IMG/VR virus record: IMGVR_UViG_3300020195_000103
Coordinates: 1-34,337 of that record
Direction: 5' to 3' (one strand)
Length of the DNA stretch: 34,337 nt
Source: a virus
The first letter of the stretch is position 1; each line of letters begins with the position of its first letter. The translations under genes and the position numbers were made by a program. Of the stretch, positions 2,461-29,058 are shown piece after piece. Under the pieces are notes generated by a model. It was not told the origin of the DNA. It worked only from the letters and a program-made list of their open reading frames with translations, and ran no database searches.

Positions 2461-4074
2461 TTATTCTTCCATCCCGAGAATGCGGCTGATGACGTCGGGG
2501 TTCTTGGCGATGATCGCGGCTTCGAGGACGCGGACCATTTCTTCCGCCCCGCGAGGTATGTCCATGTCCCATGTAGCGCGTGCGGCGCGAGGGAATTTTC
2601 TTTCGTCTTCGTCTTCGTCTTCGTCTTCGCCATCGACAGGCTCAGCATCCTCGTCGAGGGGGTCCTCGCCGGGCGCGAGCTGCTGCGGCGGTGGCGCAGG
2701 CTTCGAGAGCTCCTGCTGCTCCGGCGTCAGCGGCGTCATCTCATACCACTTGTCGCGGATCTCGGCGTTCGTGAACACGCCGCCCTCCTGCGTCTTCGTG
2801 CTAGCCCAGGACACAGCACCCGCCATGCGTTCTGTTTCTGTGAGCGCCTGAATGTTCGGCCAGCGCACAGTATATTCGCGTGGACCCTTCTTTGGCTCAG
2901 GCAAATAGCCATACGCAATGAGACGCTCGACGAGGCGCCGCATGATGTAGGGGCCAGCATAGCCCTTCTGCCTGCCGACGATCTGGTCGCGCCAGTTCTC
3001 GCGATCCTGCGATGACGCCAGCTCGCCCATCTCTGACCCGGTGAGAATGCGCTTCGGAATCCCCTTCGTGCCCGCGATCTGTGTGAGAATTCCCTCGGCC
3101 GAGGGCGTGAAGTCAGAGACATCGGACCCGAGTGGCGTAGCGGTAACGCCTCGCGTGCGCAGCCAGCGTGTCATCTGGTGCTTGTAGGACTCGGATTGCG
3201 CTTTCAGCGCCTCGACCTGGTTCTTTGCGTCCTCGAGGGCTAGGTCCTTATCGATATCGAGGTGCATGCCTTGGTTTGCACGCAGCCAATACGCCTCGCT
3301 GCCGCCCCCGGTGACCTTGTCGAGGTCGTCGAGCAAATTCCACACCGCTTCCAGCGAGGGGATGCCGAACACCTCGTTCTGCAAACAGCCCTCAGCGATG
3401 TGAATGATGCGCGACCAATGCACGCGGGGTTGCACGCCGTGCGTTGTATCAGCCCCATGCAACTGATAGTACAGCGGCATCGCATAGCGCTCGCTGGCGA
3501 TGTCTGTGTCGTATTCCAGAACGCTGATCGCTGCGTCAAGACCGATTGTGCTGACCGCCCTGCGACTCGTGGTCTCGAGGACGCCACCGCCACCACCAAG
3601 ATAGGGCTGTAGAAACAGCAGCTTGTCGGGCGAGCCCTTCGGAAGCTCCTCGTCTAGCTTTCCCGCCGCGCCAATCAGCAGGACTGCATACGTGCTTAGC
3701 CCCGCGAGCGTATCAACGCGCCGCAGCTTTGCCTGTATCTGGTGCTTGATATCGAGATCATCCCACGTCTGCTCGAACGCGGTCGAGACCTCAGGGTCTT
3801 CATCCTCGATTAGCTCGACCTCGCCACGCCAAGTCGCGTTTGGGAACACGTCAACAATACGCTTTGACAGTCCTCCGCGTGCATAGCGGTCGCAGAACCC
3901 CGCCGTCGAGAGATCGCGGTCGTAGCCGAGCACGGCGTAAAGATCACGAGCGCCGTTGAAGGTCACTCCGGCCTCGCGCAAACGCCGGATGATGTCGAGG
4001 GGGTTAGCAGCCGCAGCGCGGTGGACCATCTCTCGAGGGGCGACAAGCGAGCGGAGGGTGTCTAGTAGGGCCAT
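2461..4074 (-). CDS. Portal protein (DUF1073-like)
   Basis: The 537-residue protein has the hallmarks of the DUF1073 group of phage portal proteins: FNGARDLYAVLGYDRDL near residue 38, then a Tyr/Arg/Gly-rich stretch (DRYARGGLSKRIVD), a Trp-centred motif, and a long central region with SYKHQM and GIPKRILTGSE. The portal ring sits at the capsid vertex and is the channel for DNA packaging and ejection. Length and position directly downstream of the terminase large subunit are as expected. The C terminus carries an acidic DE repeat encoded by four CGTCTT hexamers on the plus strand (2604-2627), a short satellite that could vary in length. Three bases separate it from the terminase stop. Confidence 0.85.
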   Translation of the reverse strand: MALLDTLRSLVAPREMVHRAAAANPLDIIRRLREAGVTFNGARDLYAVLGYDRDLSTAGFCDRYARGGLSKRIVDVFPNATWRGEVELIEDEDPEVSTAFEQTWDDLDIKHQIQAKLRRVDTLAGLSTYAVLLIGAAGKLDEELPKGSPDKLLFLQPYLGGGGGVLETTSRRAVSTIGLDAAISVLEYDTDIASERYAMPLYYQLHGADTTHGVQPRVHWSRIIHIAEGCLQNEVFGIPSLEAVWNLLDDLDKVTGGGSEAYWLRANQGMHLDIDKDLALEDAKNQVEALKAQSESYKHQMTRWLRTRGVTATPLGSDVSDFTPSAEGILTQIAGTKGIPKRILTGSEMGELASSQDRENWRDQIVGRQKGYAGPYIMRRLVERLIAYGYLPEPKKGPREYTVRWPNIQALTETERMAGAVSWASTKTQEGGVFTNAEIRDKWYEMTPLTPEQQELSKPAPPPQQLAPGEDPLDEDAEPVDGEDEDEDEDERKFPRAARATWDMDIPRGAEEMVRVLEAAIIAKNPDVISRILGMEE

Positions 4075-4077
4075 TGG

Positions 4078-5328
4078 TTACCAGACCGCAAAGCCGCCGG
4101 TTTCGCGGCGTAGTTTCTCGACGCTATAGCGGAGAGAATCAATGACGTGGTTTTTCTTGTCTTCGAGCACCGGCGTCACGAGCCCTGTGAGCTTGTCTTT
4201 GATGAAGCTGTACAGCGTCAGTTCGTCGACAGTATGCACGCAGCGTGGGTGCACGACGATGTCGAAATTCTGAAGAAAGATCACGCCCTCTTTGACGCTG
4301 TCTTTCCCCTTCGTCGCAGCGACCATCTTCGGGAATCCATGCCGCTGGAGATAGGAAATAGTCTCAGGGCGTGCGCTATCGGCGGTGATTGTCCAGTCGC
4401 GTGCGCCGGGGACCTGGTCGAACAACGCGGGTAGGTGGTCAACCTCGACGCCAATGCGGTAGGCTTCCTGGTCGATATAGAGCGTCCGGCCTACCGCATA
4501 GCAGCGCACAAGCACGCTCGGGTCGACGCTGAAGCCCCAGTCTGCTCCGTAGAGGAACACCACGGTAGGCTGCCCGTCCGCGCCGACGCTCGCCTTAGGG
4601 CTCTCGAAGGCGTCAACTTTCCAGTTCTTGAAGACGCGGGCTTCGGACTTACTGAGGTACGCGCCGTTCCAGATATGCTGAAACTTCTCTGGGTCGCGAC
4701 GGCGGTCATACGCAATTTCGTCGCTCAGCGTTTTCGGCAGCCAGGGGTTGTCTTCAAACGAGGTGCGCACTACAACGGAATCGGGCGGTGGACCGTCGGG
4801 ACCCCTGAAAAATTTGTCAACAGGGTTTTCAGGCGACTCAGGGTTCCAGCTAAAGTACAGCTCCGAGCCCTCTTTGCGGATCGTCGGACGCAGCAGATCG
4901 AGCGAGTTCTGCGACAGCGCAGCCGCCTCCTCTACCCACGCAATATCAATTCCCTCGAGCGAGCGCACTGAATCGGAGGTGTGCTGCTGCATGCCGATGA
5001 AAAGGATCGTGCCCGACCCCTTCACAGCGCGGATCTCAGACTCTCTGCTCTCGAAAAGATACCCGACATCGAGGGCCTTGATGCGGTTTTCGATGAGGTT
5101 TTTGACGCTCTGCTTCAGGCTCTTCTGAATTTCACGCACGCACACAACACGCAAATCAGGGTCCATGACCATGCGTTCGATAATCATGTCCGCAAAGCAC
5201 CAACTCTTCGTGCCGCCGCGACCACCATAGGCTGCCTTGTACCTCGCGGGCGCGAGAAGCGGCAGCATGACCCGTGGGGTCTCTATGCGCAGCTTCCTTG
5301 CGTCGGTGGTGGCAGCGGTGGCGTTCAT
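4078..5328 (-). CDS. terL: Terminase large subunit
   Basis: This is a 416-residue packaging motor. The N-terminal ATPase shows a Walker A variant (YGGRGGTKSW, about residue 33), then a Walker B with its catalytic acids (DIAWVEEAAAL, about 128) and a coupling motif (LYFSWNPESP). The C-terminal RNase H-fold nuclease has the three expected acidic positions: GADWGF (about 263), TADSARP (about 315) and HVIDSLRY (about 394). This order and length fit the PBSX-type terminases, which translocate DNA through the portal and cut it. The portal gene follows immediately and a TerS candidate lies upstream. Confidence 0.9.
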   Translation of the reverse strand: MNATAATTDARKLRIETPRVMLPLLAPARYKAAYGGRGGTKSWCFADMIIERMVMDPDLRVVCVREIQKSLKQSVKNLIENRIKALDVGYLFESRESEIRAVKGSGTILFIGMQQHTSDSVRSLEGIDIAWVEEAAALSQNSLDLLRPTIRKEGSELYFSWNPESPENPVDKFFRGPDGPPPDSVVVRTSFEDNPWLPKTLSDEIAYDRRRDPEKFQHIWNGAYLSKSEARVFKNWKVDAFESPKASVGADGQPTVVFLYGADWGFSVDPSVLVRCYAVGRTLYIDQEAYRIGVEVDHLPALFDQVPGARDWTITADSARPETISYLQRHGFPKMVAATKGKDSVKEGVIFLQNFDIVVHPRCVHTVDELTLYSFIKDKLTGLVTPVLEDKKNHVIDSLRYSVEKLRRETGGFAVW

Positions 5329-5665: not shown

Positions 5666-6190
5666 TCATGGACGAGTCCCAGAATGTTGTTCGCTACGCT
5701 TCGCATTACGCGCTGCAACGCCGAGCATGGCGATCTCGCGGCGACGTTCTGGGGTTTGGCTCGCTGCACGAGCTTTGCCGGCTGCGCGCTGTCTTATTGT
5801 GCCAGAATTCTCAGGGGTTTCACTAGCCGGCAAGTAGCGGTCAAGCGGAGCTAACCAGCCGGCTAGTTGGGTCAGCTCTATGGCTGAGTCGGGCTTACTA
5901 GCCAGCAAGTTAGCCACTGACTTGCTGGCTAGTTGAGCCATCTCAACAGTAGCCTTTGGGTTACTAGCCAGCAAGTTAGAGACCCCAGCAGCCAACAAGC
6001 CGGCTAGTAAGCCCGAGTGCCGGAACCGGGGCCGGCTACTAGCCGGCTGGTTAGCTTCAAGCCCGGCAGCCGGGGCCGGCTCAGCCGTAGCCGGGTCCGG
6101 AACGGCAAGAGAAACGAGAGACGCGGTCATCGCGTCTACTTCACGCAGATGCGCAAGAGCCTCTCCGAGAGATTGGAAGTTTTCGGCCAT
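5666..6190 (-). CDS. Repeat-containing paralogue of the TerS-like protein N terminus
   Basis: The product has 174 residues. It begins MAENFQSLGEALAHL, which closely resembles MAEKFQSLADLLG of the gene just upstream, so the two share an N-terminal module. The centre repeats LLASNPKATVEMAQLAS and LLASKPDSAIELTQLAG, encoded by DNA repeats built on CTAGCCAGCAAGTTAG. The C terminus (TPERRREIAMLGVAARNAKRS) is basic. The start overlaps the upstream stop as TAATG. After the TGA at 5666-5668 the same frame stays open to a TAA at 5537-5539, so a longer ancestral product with an internal stop is possible. The 5505-5665 stretch otherwise holds only two tiny minus frames. The role is unknown; packaging accessory is a guess from context. 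Confidence 0.65.
   Translation of the reverse strand: MAENFQSLGEALAHLREVDAMTASLVSLAVPDPATAEPAPAAGLEANQPASSRPRFRHSGLLAGLLAAGVSNLLASNPKATVEMAQLASKSVANLLASKPDSAIELTQLAGWLAPLDRYLPASETPENSGTIRQRAAGKARAASQTPERRREIAMLGVAARNAKRSEQHSGTRP
5898..5932. repeat. Inverted repeat inside the repeat-rich gene
   Basis: CTAGCCAGCAAGT (5898-5910) is followed after 9 bases by its exact reverse complement ACTTGCTGGCTAG (5920-5932). The left-arm sequence recurs in direct orientation at 5964-5979 as CTAGCCAGCAAGTTAG, and related CTAGCCGGC and CCGGCTAG forms occur at 5825, 5868, 6000 and 6037. The result is a cluster of direct and inverted copies within a coding region, able to form a stable hairpin in the mRNA. Confidence 0.8.
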
Positions 6191-14622: not shown

Positions 14623-14677
14623 TAGTTTCCTTCTCGCTAGAACAGCGGGACCCCCGAAGTCGTGCAAGGAGTATTTG

Positions 14678-17600
14678 ATGTCTGATGAAGAGGAGCTGTT
14701 ACCTGGTACAGAGGACCAGCCAGCATTGTTTGACATCGATCCAAGCTGGAAGGCTACCTGGCAAGGGATGCCTGACTATTCGCATCAAGACCTGATGCCG
14801 AATACAACGTTACTTGTGCACTTCAAGACCGTCGCAGATCGAGAAGCATTTTCGAGACTTATCAACCAGCAACTAACACCGCGCACAAAGTTCATCTGGC
14901 ACCCGCAGGCTACCATCAATCACGCGGCTGAGAAAGTCTACACATCCTCGAAGGTATATACTCCGCGCTATCCGCTCTACATCATCAGTAAGAGCAGGTG
15001 GGAGTCGAGGTTGACGGCGAAGTGTTTCGAGTGGATTAAGGTGCCGTACTACATTGTCATTGAGCCGCAGGAATACGAGCAATACGCCGCGGTGATCGAT
15101 CCCTCCAAAATCCTCGTCACACCCTTCAGTAACCTCGGCCAGGGCGGCATTCCAGCACGAAATTTTTGCTGGGAACACGCCATCGCAAGCGGTGCTGCGA
15201 GACACTGGATTTTTGACGACAACATTTCGGGATTCTGCCGCTTTCAGGACAACGTCAAAGTTGAAGTCGATTCAGCTATCACGATCTGCGCCATAGAAGA
15301 CTGGGTCGACCGCTACGAAAACCTTGCGCTCGCCGCACACAATTATGACTACTTTGCACCACGAAAGCAGGGCGCAAAGATCAAGCCGATCACGATGAAC
15401 ACGCGTTGCTACAGTAACCTGCTCATCGATAACGCACTCCCATACCGCTGGAGAGGGCGCTATAACGAAGATACGGACCTCTCGCTGCGTGTGCTGAAAG
15501 ACGGTCTTGACTTACGCGATGCTGGCCGTGGAGGCAACTACGCGACAGCCCTCTTCAATGCCTTTCTTGTCTACAAGACACCCACATTGACAATGAAGGG
15601 CGGGAATACCGATCACCTCTACGCTGGCGCCGAGGCTGTTACCGCAGAGTGGGGCGCGCACACTACAGCCTGTAATGTATGTACGATCGACGCGACGGCA
15701 CGGTGTGAAGACGGACGCACGATCCTCGCGAAAGACGGTCGGTGGCTGATGGCTGATTCGCTTGCCGAACAGCATCCAGACTGCACGACGATTGAACGAA
15801 AATGGGGACGCTGGCAGCACAGCGTCGACTACCGTCTTTTTCGGAACAACGCGCTCATCATTCGTCCAAATGTTGTCATCTCAGATGTATCTGATTATGA
15901 GATGACGTTGGATGCAATGCCTAATGGGTGGGGCTCGATGAGCGCGTCTCCAGCTCCAGCTCCAGCTCCAGCTCCAGCTCCAGCTCCAGCTCCAGCTCCA
16001 GCTCCAGCTCCAGCGACAACACAGCCAGTCGCAATCTCTTCAGGTCCCTCGGCCCTCGATTTTCTCTCGGATTCCCGTCCTACTGTTGAGATAGCAAAAC
16101 CCCTGTCCCCAGCCCCAGGAGCCGCGGCTCCCGCCCTGGTAGAGGAAGCCCTCGACAGCATAGAAAACTCAGCCCTAGGCCGGCCAGAGAGCCGCCCAGC
16201 GCTCTCTGGCCAGGATGTGTTACTGGCTGACGCCAAGATGTTGAAGCGAGACCTCGAGCGCCGCGGGCATCGCCTTGTCATACGCGACGGACGCTTGTTT
16301 ATCGTGAGTGATAATTCAAGCGCGTTGACCGATACAGAGCGTGCTTCGGTTAAGTCGATGAAGGAAATACTGTTGACGATGGCTGATGCTGTCGTACCGT
16401 GCTCGTGGTGCGGAAAAGTGCACGACGGTGGACCAGAACAGTGCCAGCCAACCGCCACAGTGCCATTTCAATCACTTGCAAGTTTTCTTGACACTGTTTC
16501 TACAAGCCACGTCGAAGTTACACCTGATGCTCCACCTGACCTCACCGGCATTGATCACATCATTCTCAACTTCGCCACCTCGGGCCTTAACTGGGCGCAC
16601 GGGCACAGACCCGTCGGCGTAACAATCGCAACACCTGATGGCGGGCTTGTGCGCTTCCTTCCCTTCGCGTTCAAGGGTGGAGGCAACCTTGATGAGGCCA
16701 TTATCAAGCGTTGGATGCAGGAACAGGTGCGCGGCAAGAAGATCACGAACTCAAAGACGAAGTTCGATATCCACCACGCACGTGAGTGGGGCGTAGACCT
16801 CGAGGCGCAGGGCTGCACGTTTTCAGACATACAGCATAGCGCCGCGCTTCTCGACGACCACCGCAAGCGGTTTGCGCTCGACATTCTCGCTGCGGAATAC
16901 CTGAAAGATAGTGTCGGGGTTCCGCGTGTCGACGAAACACGGCACTCGGATTATCACGCCGCCGAGGTGGCTGAACGCGAACGCTACACCGCGCTAACGG
17001 TCGGTAGGTTGCTTGATGTTTTCGCCCCGCAGCTTATCGAGCAGGATTTGCTGAGGGTCCAGGCCCTCGAGGATTCGGTCATTCCATCCGTCGTTGAAAT
17101 GGAGAAGAACGGGGCCCTCATCGACGTCGAGCTCCTCGAGCGCTACAGCCGTGAATGCACCGTCAGACACGGCGAACTGATGCGCGAGATTATCGAGGAG
17201 GCTGGGTTCGCATTCGATCATACGTCGAAAGCGTGGCAGCGTCTGTTCGAGAAGTGCAATCTAGTGCTTGGCGACAGCCATGCGGAAAGTGTCGTCGGCG
17301 TTGTTGAGCACCCGCTTATCAAGAAAGCGTTTTTCGCTGGGCAAATCGCTTCCCTAAATAGCAAGACATTCGCAGCCTACCGCAGCAAGCTTGACGGCGA
17401 CGTGCTACGGTTTGAGATTAACCAGCTTCGCGGCGACGAGGGCGGCACCGTGTCGGGCCGCTTCAGCATTGGCTACGTGCAGCAGGTTCCAAACTACGAT
17501 AATCATTCATCCGTATTCGGCGATGAGTGGTTTCCGAGGAGTCTCTTTGTTCCGCGTAGCGGGTGTTATCTCGAGGCCGACGCGGCACAGATTGAATACC

Positions 17601-18319
17601 GGCTGTTTGCCCACTTTGCCGGCAACGCCAAGGTGCTTGCTTCATACAAGGAGGACCCCGGTCTATCATTCCACAAGATGACGTGGGAGATGATGAAGCA
17701 ATACAAAGCAGATATGCTTTACGGGCATCAGAAAAATTTCAACTTCGCCCGGCAGTACGGCGCACGCTCCGTGAAGCTTGCTATCATGATGAAATTTATC
17801 ACGCAGGCAGAGGGCGATGAGATACGCGCTGCGAGCCGTTGGAACGACCCTCGGCTCAAGCAGATTCACGAGATCGAGGCGGCATACAAGCAGATGATGC
17901 CGGAGGGCGAGGAGCTACTTGACCGAGCGTCGCATCTCGCAAAACCTGAGTGCGACAAATACTGCCGGAAGAGTGATAAATTCCACAGAGAAAAGCTTCC
18001 ACACCGGGGCTATGTCAAGACGATCATCGGCCGACGCTCGCGATTCCCTACTAGCTACAAGACCTACATCGGTCTCAACCGCGTGCTCCAGGGTAGCGGT
18101 GCAGACATTATGAAGCAGAAGCTCGTCGAGCTTCACAATGCGCGCAAGGATACCGGGTTTCTTATGCGCATGACGGTCCACGATGCTGTAGGTGGCGATG
18201 CTCAGCAACCCGAGACTCTTGAGCGCGTTAAGACAATCCTGAACGAGCAATCTTTTCCACTGCGTGTACCGGTTATCTGGGAGTGCGGCGAGGGGAAGAA
18301 CTGGGCGGAGGCGAAGTGA
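14678..18319 (+). CDS. TAGT-type DNA glycosyltransferase fused to family A DNA polymerase
   Basis: The product has 1,213 residues; ATG at 14678 with AAGGAG six bases upstream. Residues 1-400 match the TET-associated glycosyltransferase (TAGT) group: YPLYIISKSRWESRLT, YIVIEPQEYEQY, LGQGGIPARNFCWE and HWIFDDNISGF (DDN). Such enzymes add sugars to hydroxymethylated pyrimidines in phage DNA. An Ala-Pro hinge (424-446) follows, then a TubC-like docking segment (about 515-565) and a Cys site (CSWCGK...EQC). Next is a 3'-5' exonuclease fold whose first motif reads LNFATSGL instead of DxE, so proofreading is probably lost. The polymerase has motif A (DAAQIEYR, about 964), motif B (KNFNFARQYG, about 1018) and motif C (VHDAV, about 1168, with Ala replacing the usual Glu). 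The start and end overlap no other gene except a GTGA overlap at the 3' end. Confidence 0.85.
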   Translation: MSDEEELLPGTEDQPALFDIDPSWKATWQGMPDYSHQDLMPNTTLLVHFKTVADREAFSRLINQQLTPRTKFIWHPQATINHAAEKVYTSSKVYTPRYPLYIISKSRWESRLTAKCFEWIKVPYYIVIEPQEYEQYAAVIDPSKILVTPFSNLGQGGIPARNFCWEHAIASGAARHWIFDDNISGFCRFQDNVKVEVDSAITICAIEDWVDRYENLALAAHNYDYFAPRKQGAKIKPITMNTRCYSNLLIDNALPYRWRGRYNEDTDLSLRVLKDGLDLRDAGRGGNYATALFNAFLVYKTPTLTMKGGNTDHLYAGAEAVTAEWGAHTTACNVCTIDATARCEDGRTILAKDGRWLMADSLAEQHPDCTTIERKWGRWQHSVDYRLFRNNALIIRPNVVISDVSDYEMTLDAMPNGWGSMSASPAPAPAPAPAPAPAPAPAPAPATTQPVAISSGPSALDFLSDSRPTVEIAKPLSPAPGAAAPALVEEALDSIENSALGRPESRPALSGQDVLLADAKMLKRDLERRGHRLVIRDGRLFIVSDNSSALTDTERASVKSMKEILLTMADAVVPCSWCGKVHDGGPEQCQPTATVPFQSLASFLDTVSTSHVEVTPDAPPDLTGIDHIILNFATSGLNWAHGHRPVGVTIATPDGGLVRFLPFAFKGGGNLDEAIIKRWMQEQVRGKKITNSKTKFDIHHAREWGVDLEAQGCTFSDIQHSAALLDDHRKRFALDILAAEYLKDSVGVPRVDETRHSDYHAAEVAERERYTALTVGRLLDVFAPQLIEQDLLRVQALEDSVIPSVVEMEKNGALIDVELLERYSRECTVRHGELMREIIEEAGFAFDHTSKAWQRLFEKCNLVLGDSHAESVVGVVEHPLIKKAFFAGQIASLNSKTFAAYRSKLDGDVLRFEINQLRGDEGGTVSGRFSIGYVQQVPNYDNHSSVFGDEWFPRSLFVPRSGCYLEADAAQIEYRLFAHFAGNAKVLASYKEDPGLSFHKMTWEMMKQYKADMLYGHQKNFNFARQYGARSVKLAIMMKFITQAEGDEIRAASRWNDPRLKQIHEIEAAYKQMMPEGEELLDRASHLAKPECDKYCRKSDKFHREKLPHRGYVKTIIGRRSRFPTSYKTYIGLNRVLQGSGADIMKQKLVELHNARKDTGFLMRMTVHDAVGGDAQQPETLERVKTILNEQSFPLRVPVIWECGEGKNWAEAK
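15948..16013 (+). repeat. (CTCCAG)11 hexanucleotide tandem repeat
   Basis: Eleven perfect CTCCAG units encode alternating Ala and Pro in the linker between the glycosyltransferase and polymerase domains. The length is a multiple of three, so unit gain or loss changes linker length without shifting the frame. Confidence 0.9.
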
Positions 18320-18714
18320 GCAAACGCGAAGGCGTGCTGAAGGCATCGTTGAAGGAAGCCATCGAACGTGCGCTGCCGCACTTCGTGGTCATCTCTCACA
18401 CAGATATCGCGAGTGGGATTCCAGATTGGTCGATTACCGGCAACGGCATTACGTCATGGTTGGAATTGAAGCACGCGACGCCGGAGTTCACCTCGCGAGG
18501 TATTCAAGTGGTCACAGCTTCCCGCCTCGCCGCCGCGGGGCACTGTCGGTATCTTGTTTTCTGGGAGCGTAGCATAAACAACAAGCGCACGTGCATCGTA
18601 CATCCGGGAAGCGTGGTCTTCGGGCGTAATGCAACGACGAAGTCAGAACTATTCAGTGACGGTCATGACAATGAATTCGTGATCGACTATTTGCGCAAGG
18701 TGCACCGCGTATGA
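18316..18714 (+). CDS. PD-(D/E)XK (VRR-NUC-like) nuclease
   Basis: The product has 132 residues from a GTG at 18316 that overlaps the polymerase stop as GTGA; upstream in-frame starts lie inside the polymerase gene. The active-site pattern is clear: SGIPDWSI (Asp), WLELKHA (E-x-K) about 16 residues later, and GIQVVTASRLAAAGHCRYLVFWE (Gln plus helix). This order is that of VRR-NUC and related Holliday-junction or structure-specific nucleases. In a replication operon it probably processes branched DNA. Confidence 0.75.
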   Translation: MSKREGVLKASLKEAIERALPHFVVISHTDIASGIPDWSITGNGITSWLELKHATPEFTSRGIQVVTASRLAAAGHCRYLVFWERSINNKRTCIVHPGSVVFGRNATTKSELFSDGHDNEFVIDYLRKVHRV

Positions 18715-19259
18715 ACGAACCCTTTCGCGTTCTCTGCGCAGACCCTCCGTGGCCATTCAGAGACAAGCTGCCAGGCAAGAACCGAGGAGCAGCAAGTAAC
18801 TACCCGCTGCTGTCGATCCGAGACCTTTGCCGGCTTCCTCTGCCGCCGCTAGCAGATGATTGCGTGCTGTTTATGTGGCGTGTCGCATCGATGCAGTCCG
18901 AGGCACTACGCGTAATCGATGCGTGGGGCTTTGACCAACCGCAGCGCGAGGTCGTGTGGCTCAAGAAAACCTCGAACGGCAATCGTTGGTTTGGGATGGG
19001 CCGTGTTGTGCGCGCAGAGCACGAAATTTGCTTGATCGCAATGCGCGGTCGTCCGATTGTCAAGAGCCACTCTGTTCGCTCGACATTTGTGACTGACGTC
19101 GACCTTGAAGGGATTAGTGCTATTGTCGGAAAACATTCAGCGAAACCAGAGACTTTTTATGGTATAATCGAGACATTGTTCGACGGGCCGTATTGCGAAT
19201 TATTTGCCCGTCGACAGCGCCCCGGTTGGACGTGTTTAGGGAATGAGGCGAACGGATGA
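18711..19259 (+). CDS. MT-A70-family adenine methyltransferase
   Basis: The 182-residue protein opens with FRVLCADPPWPF, the DPPW catalytic motif of MT-A70 N6-adenine methyltransferases. It continues with ASNYPLLSIRDLCRLPLPPLADDCVLFMW, then WLKK and FGMGRVVRAEHE, and ends with KPETFYGIIETLFDGPYCELFARRQRPGW, the expected SAM-binding end. It probably methylates adenine in phage DNA to block host restriction, or marks DNA for regulation. Both ends overlap neighbours by four bases (ATGA), so it is translationally coupled to the nuclease and clamp genes. Confidence 0.9.
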   Translation: MNEPFRVLCADPPWPFRDKLPGKNRGAASNYPLLSIRDLCRLPLPPLADDCVLFMWRVASMQSEALRVIDAWGFDQPQREVVWLKKTSNGNRWFGMGRVVRAEHEICLIAMRGRPIVKSHSVRSTFVTDVDLEGISAIVGKHSAKPETFYGIIETLFDGPYCELFARRQRPGWTCLGNEANG

Positions 19260-27185: not shown

Positions 27186-27242
27186 ATGCATCTGGCAGCA
27201 GACAAGGCCGCAACCGCAAGGCCATCGCCAGACAGCGGTGAC

Positions 27243-27270
27243 TTTGGCCGTGGGAAAGAAACGGCCCATT
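27243..27270 (+). repeat. Cassette-flanking hairpin repeat, left copy
   Basis: TTTGGCCG, ten bases, then ACGGCCCATT, where GGCCGT pairs with ACGGCC. The same 18 fixed bases with the same 10-base interval recur at 29031-29058 after the array, while the 10-base loop differs. Each copy is about 35 bases upstream of the next gene's start. They may be weak terminators or 5' leader elements of one type, or the ends of a mobile cassette. Confidence 0.7.
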
Positions 27271-27304: not shown

Positions 27305-28339
27305 ATGTCACTAAACCCACTGAAAACCAGCATCGCCGTCGAGCAGGATGCGCTCTGCGCCCTGAGCGGCGAGCCACTCGCCATCGACCCGTCGCTCAAT
27401 GATCCAGATCGCATTACGCCCAAGGCGAAGGGTGGCACCTACACGCGCAAGAACACGCGGGTGGTCACGCCGTTGGCCCACATGGCGCATCACGGCATCC
27501 TGCGGACGCGCACGGAGGCGCTTGACGGCCTCAAGTCGCTCTTCGATGACCGCGTGCAGATGATGAAGCTGCTGCTGAAGGAGAACAACCAACTCCAAGC
27601 ATACAAGCGCCGCATCGACCATCAGCACCCGGAGACCGCCGCGTTCCTCGAGGCGCATCTGCAACCCATCGAGGCGCGGATCGCGCTCATCGACAAGGCG
27701 CTCACGGCAGCCATCAAGTCCTACCCCGATGCGTTCGTCAGAGCGGCGATTGCCGTCAAGGGGCTCGGCCCCATCACGGTCGCGGCGCTCACGGCCTACG
27801 TCGATCTAGAGAAGGCGCCGACGCCGTCGTCCCTCTGGCAGTATGTCGGCCTGGACCGGCCGTCGCACGAGCGCTACGAGAAGAATCCGGCGCAGCAGAC
27901 GCGGCGGGTGGCGCGTGGGCCGGCTTTCTACAGTGTCCCCTCGCGGCATGACGATGACCCGCAGGTGCCGACGGGCTGGGGCGGAAACAAGGTGCTGCGC
28001 ACGGTGTTGTGGAACAGCGCCAATGTGATGATGAAGTTGGGCGAAGGCGGCTACCGGGACGTCTACGACAGGACGAAGCTGCGCCTGAGCGTGTCGGAGA
28101 AGGTCGTGAAGACACGCAACACGGCTGGCGCGCTGGTGGAGTGCGCGTGGAAGGACACGAAGCCGTCGCATCGGCACGGCGCGGCGTTGCGGGCGGTCAT
28201 GAAGCATCTGCTGGCGGACTACTGGATGGTGGGCCGCACGATGGCGGGGCTGCGGACGACGCCGCTCTACGCCGAGGCGATGCTCGGGCACGCGCACATC
28301 ATCGCGCCGAAAGAACGAGGTTGGGCGTTCGAGGGGTAG
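27305..28339 (+). CDS. tasH: HNH plus Nop/IS110-like RNA-guided nuclease (TasH-type)
   Basis: The product has 344 residues; ATG at 27305 with GAGGA five bases upstream. Residues 1-64 look like an HNH finger: ALCALSGEPL, then DRITPKAKGGTYTRKN and AHMAHHG (Asp35/Arg36, Asn50, His59, His62, His63; the usual first His is Arg36). Residues about 75-145 are long helices. Residues 152-183 (KGLGPITVAALTAYVDL...SSLWQYVGL) and about 230-320 (GWGGNKVLRTVLWNSANVMMK, then SHRHGAALRAVMKHLLADYW) match the Nop/Transposase_20 region of IS110 transposases and the TIGR-Tas proteins. The RuvC-like DEDD domain of IS110 is absent. A 36-bp periodic array starts at the stop codon. Together these fit TasH of TIGR-Tas, which uses two short spacers to guide DNA cleavage. 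Naming is by analogy. Confidence 0.8.
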   Translation: MSLNPLKTSIAVEQDALCALSGEPLAIDPSLNDPDRITPKAKGGTYTRKNTRVVTPLAHMAHHGILRTRTEALDGLKSLFDDRVQMMKLLLKENNQLQAYKRRIDHQHPETAAFLEAHLQPIEARIALIDKALTAAIKSYPDAFVRAAIAVKGLGPITVAALTAYVDLEKAPTPSSLWQYVGLDRPSHERYEKNPAQQTRRVARGPAFYSVPSRHDDDPQVPTGWGGNKVLRTVLWNSANVMMKLGEGGYRDVYDRTKLRLSVSEKVVKTRNTAGALVECAWKDTKPSHRHGAALRAVMKHLLADYWMVGRTMAGLRTTPLYAEAMLGHAHIIAPKERGWAFEG

Positions 28340-28342
28340 CCA

Positions 28343-29027
28343 CCAGGTTCAAGAAACCCAAAAACGAAAAGCGAGCCACATCAGCCTAGAAACCCAAAGA
28401 CCTGAAGCGAGCCACGACACCTAAGAAACCCAATGTGAGCAAGCGAGCCATTGTCTAGTAGAAACCCACGGAGCCAAAGCGAGCCAAGCTTCGCAAGAAA
28501 CCCAACGAACGCAAGCGAGTCAGCAGAACGAAGAAACCTATTGATTGCAAGCGAGCCACACCCGCGGAGAAACCTATCACCCTTTAGCGGGCCATCCTTC
28601 GGTAGAAACCCAACAAGTGGAAGCGAGCCACGCCAGATAAGAAATCCAATGATGGCAAGCGAGCCCAGTCAATGCGTTGAATACGCCCAAGGTAGAGAAG
28701 CGAGTCATCAAGCAGTAATCCAGCGGCCGCTAGCGAGCCAGAAGCAGAAAGAAACCCACCAGCCAAAGCGAGCCAATGGCCTCTAGAAACCCATCACGCC
28801 CAAGCGAGCCACGCCAGATAAGAAACCCAATGAGGGGAAGCGAGTCATGAGGCAGTAGAAACCCAGTGGCCGCTAGCGAGCCAGAAGCAGAAAGAAACCC
28901 ACCAGTCCTTAGCGAGTCAGGCATCGCAAGAAACCCACGAGCGCGAAGCGAGTCAGGCGCCGATAAAAACCCACTAGGCGTAAGCGAGCCAGCGACTTAT
29001 AGAAACCCACCCCCTGGAAGCGTCTCA
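28343..29027 (+). repeat. TIGR-like guide array (36-bp period, about 19 units)
   Basis: Each unit is AGAAACCCA, 9 variable bases, AGCGAGCCA (or AGCGAGTCA), 9 variable bases. AGAAACCCA starts at 28352, 28388, 28424, 28460, 28496, 28532, 28568, 28604 and 28640. After two degenerate units (about 28681 and 28714) it resumes at 28750, 28785, 28821, 28857, 28893, 28929, 28965 and 29001. AGCGAG boxes follow each by 18 bases (for example 28370, 28803, 28983). A decayed box (GGGTAGCCA, 28334) overlaps the nuclease stop and a last one (AGCGTCTCA, 29019) closes the array. In the TIGR-Tas family, as I recall, the processed guide RNA is 36 nt with two 9-nt spacers. There is no CRISPR-like long repeat. Confidence 0.85.
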
Positions 29028-29030
29028 ACC

Positions 29031-29058
29031 TTTGGCCGATGAGGAACAACGGCCCATT
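29031..29058 (+). repeat. Cassette-flanking hairpin repeat, right copy
   Basis: TTTGGCCG (29031-29038), ten bases, ACGGCCCATT (29049-29058) begins three bases after the last array box. The stem is GGCCG/CGGCC followed by CATTTT, so it could terminate the array transcript. The fixed bases are identical to the copy at 27243-27270. Confidence 0.7.

Follow-up and report, generated by a model that had tools for sequence, protein, structure and literature searches.

A phage TIGR-TasH locus with P4-family primase genes as a candidate target of two of its guides

Which DNA does a phage-borne RNA-guided nuclease act upon, and how does its set of guides arise? Both questions are raised by positions 27305-29027 of the viral record IMGVR_UViG_3300020195_000103, whose 34,337 nucleotides constitute the window analyzed here and in which the gene tasH is followed by an array of short guide units. 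A first-pass annotation of the sequence had read this locus as a TasH system consisting of an HNH-like plus Nop/IS110-type protein and its array, and had proposed a profile search, structure prediction and a search for adjacent paired spacer matches as checks. The founding paper on TIGR-Tas describes genuine TIGR targets as difficult to identify, and spacer origin and the mode of array expansion as unknown (PMC12045711). Here we report the P4-family primase gene of other phages as a candidate natural target of guides 9 and 14, based on sequence matches. This candidate and the codon-tracking guide pair are what is new, membership of the TasH family being itself ordinary.

Identification of the TasH nuclease

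The gene and the domains of its product are as follows.

27305..28339, + strand: tasH, encoding an HNH plus Nop-domain RNA-guided endonuclease of 344 amino acids, ATG start (PDB, tblastn, NF052498, Foldseek)
27356..27502, + strand: N-terminal HNH domain, residues ~18-66 (alignment of 14 TasH proteins, model, weak HNH matches)
27515..28324, + strand: coiled coil and Nop/IS110-type RNA-binding domain, residues ~71-340 (Pfam Transposase_20, model, Foldseek)
27878..27979, + strand: stretch with an insertion of ~28 residues, predicted to be disordered (alignment, model)

A PDB search with the product of 27305-28339 returned TasH as the best solved-structure match by sequence (E=2.7e-107), and tblastn gave 51.5% identity over 99% of the query to the TasH (type TasH) of Salicola phage CGphi29. 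Against the NCBIfam model TIGR_Tas_endo (NF052498) the protein scored 95.8 bits (E=3.4e-27), 4 bits short of the cut-off of 100, and Pfam Transposase_20 matched residues 151-187 (E=2e-4). An AlphaFold model with a 12-sequence input (predicted local distance difference test, pLDDT, 82) had as its top Foldseek match 9w04, the cryo-electron microscopy (cryo-EM) structure of TasH with tigRNA and double-stranded DNA (E=1.4e-31, TM 0.77/0.85); the ranking ran from TasH cryo-EM structures to TasR and then to IS621.

Within the HNH domain, modeled as strand-strand-helix and matching HNH structures weakly, D33, R36, N50, H59 and H63 are invariant in the alignment of 14 TasH proteins, the experimentally active SpTasH among them. 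Arg replaces the initial His of the usual HNH motif (the DH motif) throughout the TasH family, the active CGphi29 enzyme included. The coiled-coil/Nop part contains two predicted 30-residue helices (residues 71-101 and 109-138) and matches TasR and IS621 structurally. The insertion of ~28 residues, which CGphi29 TasH lacks, lies within residues 192-225, where pLDDT falls below 50. Judged from its sequence and predicted structure, the product is a TasH belonging to an already known family. The first-pass reading is supported by sequence, NCBIfam, array-bearing relatives and predicted structure, the profile search having found both the Transposase_20 and the TIGR_Tas_endo similarity.

Thirteen TasH relatives were found (CGphi29 and twelve IMG/VR loci), and an array of 36-bp period adjoins the gene in 13/13; the possibility, considered at first pass, that homologs consistently lack arrays is therefore not what the relatives show. 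No close relatives of TasH were found in GTDB genomes and plasmids. The nearest relative in the tree, L007 (IMG/VR contig 3300003885_000017; support 97/97), likewise has a 19-unit array immediately behind the gene, but differs in its loop box (AGAGTCCCA-like), the place of its insertion and its spacers. Since a phage relative with 61% identity at the adjacent gp34-like gene (L023) has no tasH ahead of that gene, the module is, on this comparison, an accessory gain or loss.

Architecture of the TIGR array

28337..29027, + strand: TIGR array of 19 units, each consisting of edge (W)AGCGAGYCA, spacer A, loop (W)AGAAACCCA and spacer B, with truncated edges at both ends (box search, spacing)

The array stands directly behind tasH with no gap and runs to 29027. 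The box pair AGAAACCCA-N9-AGCGAGYCA occurs 17 times at <=2 mismatches, always within 28352-29027, and 0 times in 100 shuffles. Edge and loop boxes alternate every 18 bp, and the 36-bp period is kept by 16 of the 19 units; it is broken at 28658-28766, where the distances between consecutive edge boxes are 41, 33 and 35 bp and, of the loop boxes, one is heavily degenerate and one truncated. The ~19 units of alternating boxes described earlier right behind the gene therefore stand, whereas the strict period claimed for them does not. Both ends carry truncated edge boxes: TAGCCA (28337-28342), which overlaps the tasH stop TAG, at the start, and AGCGTCTCA (29019-29027) at the end; TIGR arrays have been described as bounded by truncated edge repeats (PMC12045711).

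Edge and loop share box C/D motifs, each starting with AG and ending with CCA. Because the base preceding the boxes is almost always A or T, a reading with 10-bp boxes and 8-bp spacers is preferable to the 9-bp boxes and 9-bp variable segments first assigned. The SpTIGR spacers are of 8 nt, 16 nt in total (PMC12045711). Nor are the boxes new, as had been thought possible, since the edge box GCGAGYCA recurs in ~10/14 TasH loci; AGCGAGCCA is the CGphi29 box, and AGAAACCCA is present in the arrays of L012, L011 and L010.

The locus thus resembles the SpTIGR-TasH system of CGphi29 (Faure et al. 2025, PMC12045711; PDB 9w04, 9vzx, 21kl) in its HNH-Nop protein at the identity given above, the array directly downstream, an identical box AAGCGAGCCA, the period of 36 and 8+8-nt spacers. 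It differs in the loop box (AGAAACCCA vs AGACAACCA), the number of units (19 vs 11), the 28-residue insertion, the array block duplication and the candidate target. TasA of Microcystis phage Mvi-JY20 (L003), whose array boxes are ATGCGAGCC and ACGAAACCC, shares the Nop domain but lacks the HNH domain and is 26% identical, and its module lies between perfect 37-bp direct repeats.

Candidate target of guides 9 and 14

28622..28666, + strand: guide of unit 9, with spacer A CGCCAGAT at 28631-28638 and spacer B ATGATGGC at 28649-28656; its candidate target, CGCCAGAT|GCCATCAT, encodes D-D-G-I-W-R in primase
28803..28847, + strand: guide of unit 14, with spacer A CGCCAGAT at 28812-28819 and spacer B ATGAGGGG at 28830-28837; its candidate target, CGCCAGAT|CCCCTCAT, encodes D-E-G-I-W-R in primase

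According to the known rule, the two spacers of a unit, A and B, pair with opposite strands at immediately neighboring positions (PMC12045711). Written as A followed by the reverse complement of B, unit 9 reads CGCCAGATGCCATCAT and unit 14 reads CGCCAGATCCCCTCAT. IMG/VR was scanned with the query CGCCAGATSCCMTCAT, comprising guides 9 and 14 and two mixed forms, which gave at least 120 matches. When these were clustered by context with the 16-mer masked, one homologous gene cluster accounted for 68/120 among the matches listed, and GIWRR was in frame at the site in 74/120 among the matches listed, mostly with flanks like SGNHKPDIRGTDDGIWRRVMLVPF. All open reading frames (ORFs) sampled from the matched genes (8/8) were TIGR01613, the P4 family of phage/plasmid primases, and blastn of the site returned phage genes annotated as primase. 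The match falls on the primase motif D-[D/E]-G-I-W-R and has the layout of A plus reverse-complemented B with gap 0. The exact unit 14 guide lay in a P4-like primase in 12/14 among the viral matches listed; in GTDB genomes ~3/64 matches were in primase, near background. By the same procedure, the largest cluster for window unit 15 held 6/120 among the matches listed, and the duplicated guide pair of L019 gave 44 matches with a largest cluster of 5, reading YLEYF in frame, the remainder being scattered.

Guides 9 and 14 differ only at positions 9 and 12, each of which is the third base of a codon when read in the primase frame. The change at position 9 (GAT/GAG) turns D into E, a natural variant, and that at position 12 (GGC/GGG) is silent. 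By our estimate, a random guide would meet such a recurrent conserved 16-mer with a probability of ~1e-4 to 1e-3, and the probability that two random changes both give natural variants is ~3%; both values were reached by reasoning rather than computed. Within the window phage itself no match to guides 9/14 is better than 4 mismatches (best 4-5), and the primase-helicase of this phage is VapE-type, unlike the P4-family primase. The paired-match search proposed at first pass did find adjacent sites, in phage primase genes, and the expectation that the spacers point at rival phages is supported for this one guide pair; the other guides were left without a target. The primase match may be the first pointer to the natural prey of TIGR-Tas systems.

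Duplication within the array

28604..28775, + strand: units 8-12, the older of the two copies of a duplicated array block and partly decayed (alignment with 28785-28928)
28785..28928, + strand: units 13-16, the copy of that block which is intact (alignment with 28604-28775)

The block of units 9-12 is a diverged copy of that of units 14-16, and the spacers are therefore not all independent. Spacer A is identical in units 9 and 14 and in units 12 and 16, while the corresponding spacers B have diverged; in the first block copy, the boxes have decayed and an additional segment is present. Across the TasH phages, single arrays contain clearly more near-identical spacers than chance would give, with 12 A-spacer pairs at <=1 mismatch, including two parsing artefacts, vs 1.3 expected; on these sequences the arrays therefore grow at least partly through copying of units.

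Duplicated units were also seen at two further loci. In L014 the neighboring guides at 3785 and 3821 have the same spacer A and spacers B that differ by a single base, a change that leaves the translation of one frame unaltered, and in L019 the near-duplicate guides CGAAGTATTCCAGGTA (12581) and CGAAATATTCAAGGTA (12761) both encode YLEYF with only silent differences.

Probable mechanism and alternative explanations

We consider it probable, from the sequence comparisons above, that this is a phage-borne TIGR-TasH locus attacking competing mobile DNA, with guides 9 and 14 directed against the P4-family primase. The array would be transcribed with or behind tasH and each 36-nt unit would yield one tigRNA; its spacers A and B would pair with opposite DNA strands at abutting sites, and a TasH dimer would cut both strands. 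Cutting of both strands guided by tigRNA has been shown for the CGphi29 relative (PMC12045711), and the processing, cleavage and biological effect of the window system are inferred from the TasH family. In its most likely use, an attack on competing mobile DNA, the system would strike P4-family (D5-like) primase-helicase genes carried by other phages or by satellites, guides 9 and 14 recognizing the conserved D-[D/E]-G-I-W-R site; the window phage would be spared because it replicates through a different, VapE-type primase-helicase. The array would have been enlarged by block duplication, after which the copy would have come to match a version of this site with different codons.

Several points weigh against this reading. 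A site of 16 bp is short, and coincidence could produce a match to a single, highly conserved motif; the boxes of unit 9 are slightly decayed; and TasR in E. coli blocked neither phage nor conjugation, yet cured plasmids (PMC12045711). A target was identified for only 2 of ~19 guides and none for the others, and ~200 other guides, drawn from 14 TasH phages plus a TasA phage, showed no excess over shuffled pairs in a sample of ~1.4-1.5 Mb of viral DNA, which is small for 16-bp sites. A functional TIGR-TasH locus whose primase match is coincidental, its real targets being uncharted phages, plasmids or host sites, is on balance unlikely. It would account for the absence of an assignable target for any other guide and for the scattered matches of unit 15 and the synonymous L019 pair, and a motif among the best conserved in phage primases is favored by chance matches. 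It accords poorly with the concentration of 68/120 among the matches listed in one gene vs 5/44 and 6/120 for the control guide sets, and with a duplicated guide whose changes are confined to third codon positions and yield a natural variant.

That the locus is a relict or decaying, TasH being made but the array wholly or partly non-working, is more doubtful still. The degenerate boxes and odd spacing of units 10-12, the disordered insertion in TasH and the failure to find either a sigma-70 promoter or a clear terminator would fit such decay, but the ORF is of full length with every family-invariant residue, 16/19 units are regular and an intact block copy is retained. An IS110-type RNA-guided transposase in place of a Tas nuclease is hardly conceivable. 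Pfam Transposase_20, a weak IS110 match and the common fold would speak for it, and the window system does share with the IS110/IS621 bridge-RNA transposases a Nop-type RNA-binding domain and a coiled coil; these transposases differ in their DEDD catalytic domain, single bridge RNA and transposition, the N-terminus of the window protein being HNH-like. The IS110 score (NF033542, 35 bits vs a cut-off of 140), the far better TasH sequence match and the structural match refute this identity, and a guide array is present.

The locus supplies a testable candidate target in a primase motif found in many phages, a duplicated guide pair fitting two codon variants, and a block duplication caught in the sequence. 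Beyond it, we hold evenly balanced the broader proposal that phages use TIGR-TasH systems as weapons, turned on replication genes in rival phages and in satellites, with guides on the most conserved motif of the P4-family primase, and that their arrays diversify by duplicated units covering codon variants of the same protein motif, the spacers tracking coding sequence without adaptation machinery. If the primase target is confirmed, TIGR-Tas would be a system of inter-virus competition, and other arrays would be decodable by treating A plus reverse-complemented B as stretches of coding sequence from conserved genes of mobile elements.

Further target searches and locus surroundings

Other searches for targets gave no signal. 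There was no guide excess in a 1.47 Mb viral sample when the guides used to fetch the sample were left out, no self-target above chance within the window phage, and no excess for the opposite layout (reverse-complemented B plus A); reciprocal targets among TasH phages amounted to 20 one-mismatch matches vs 14-25 in shuffles. None of the other guides was directed at primase genes, and a guide of L016 encoding LSGNH, resembling the primase motif LSGNHKP, was dropped as its DNA match was not close.

27242..27270, + strand: hairpin-containing imperfect repeat upstream of tasH, similar to 29030-29058
29030..29058, + strand: hairpin-containing imperfect repeat after the array, similar to 27242-27270; possible weak terminator, no T run

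These imperfect repeats bracket tasH and the array and have no further copy in the window; the score of the pair was equaled by 2/207 control pairs. The hairpin behind the array has 5 pairs and no T run. The terminator scan found no rho-independent terminator on the + strand after the array, no sigma-70 promoter was found for the locus, and an Rfam search gave no match. Flanking direct repeats were rejected as general cassette ends, being clear at the Microcystis TasA, weak here and absent at the other 13 loci. At that TasA locus (L003), perfect 37-bp direct repeats (4912-4948 and 6041-6077) flank the gene and array exactly, with no other copy in the 100 kb searched of the 108-kb genome; they are possibly a mobile cassette or an insertion footprint.

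Portal, terminase and replication genes are present in the window and support its phage context, in agreement with the first description of the locus as phage-borne. In a single ORF of 1214 amino acids at 14675-18319, a TET-associated glycosyltransferase domain (PF20691) and a family A DNA polymerase (PF00476) are connected by an (Ala-Pro)n linker, for which 11 copies of a 6-bp repeat (15948-16014) code; this fusion suggests hypermodified DNA bases. An MT-A70 adenine methyltransferase (PF05063, E=1.8e-22) is encoded near the polymerase gene at 18711-19259. Finally, the 63 bp at 1436-1498 share ~86% identity with a minor tail gene found in several Pseudomonas phages, from which the window phage is otherwise distant.
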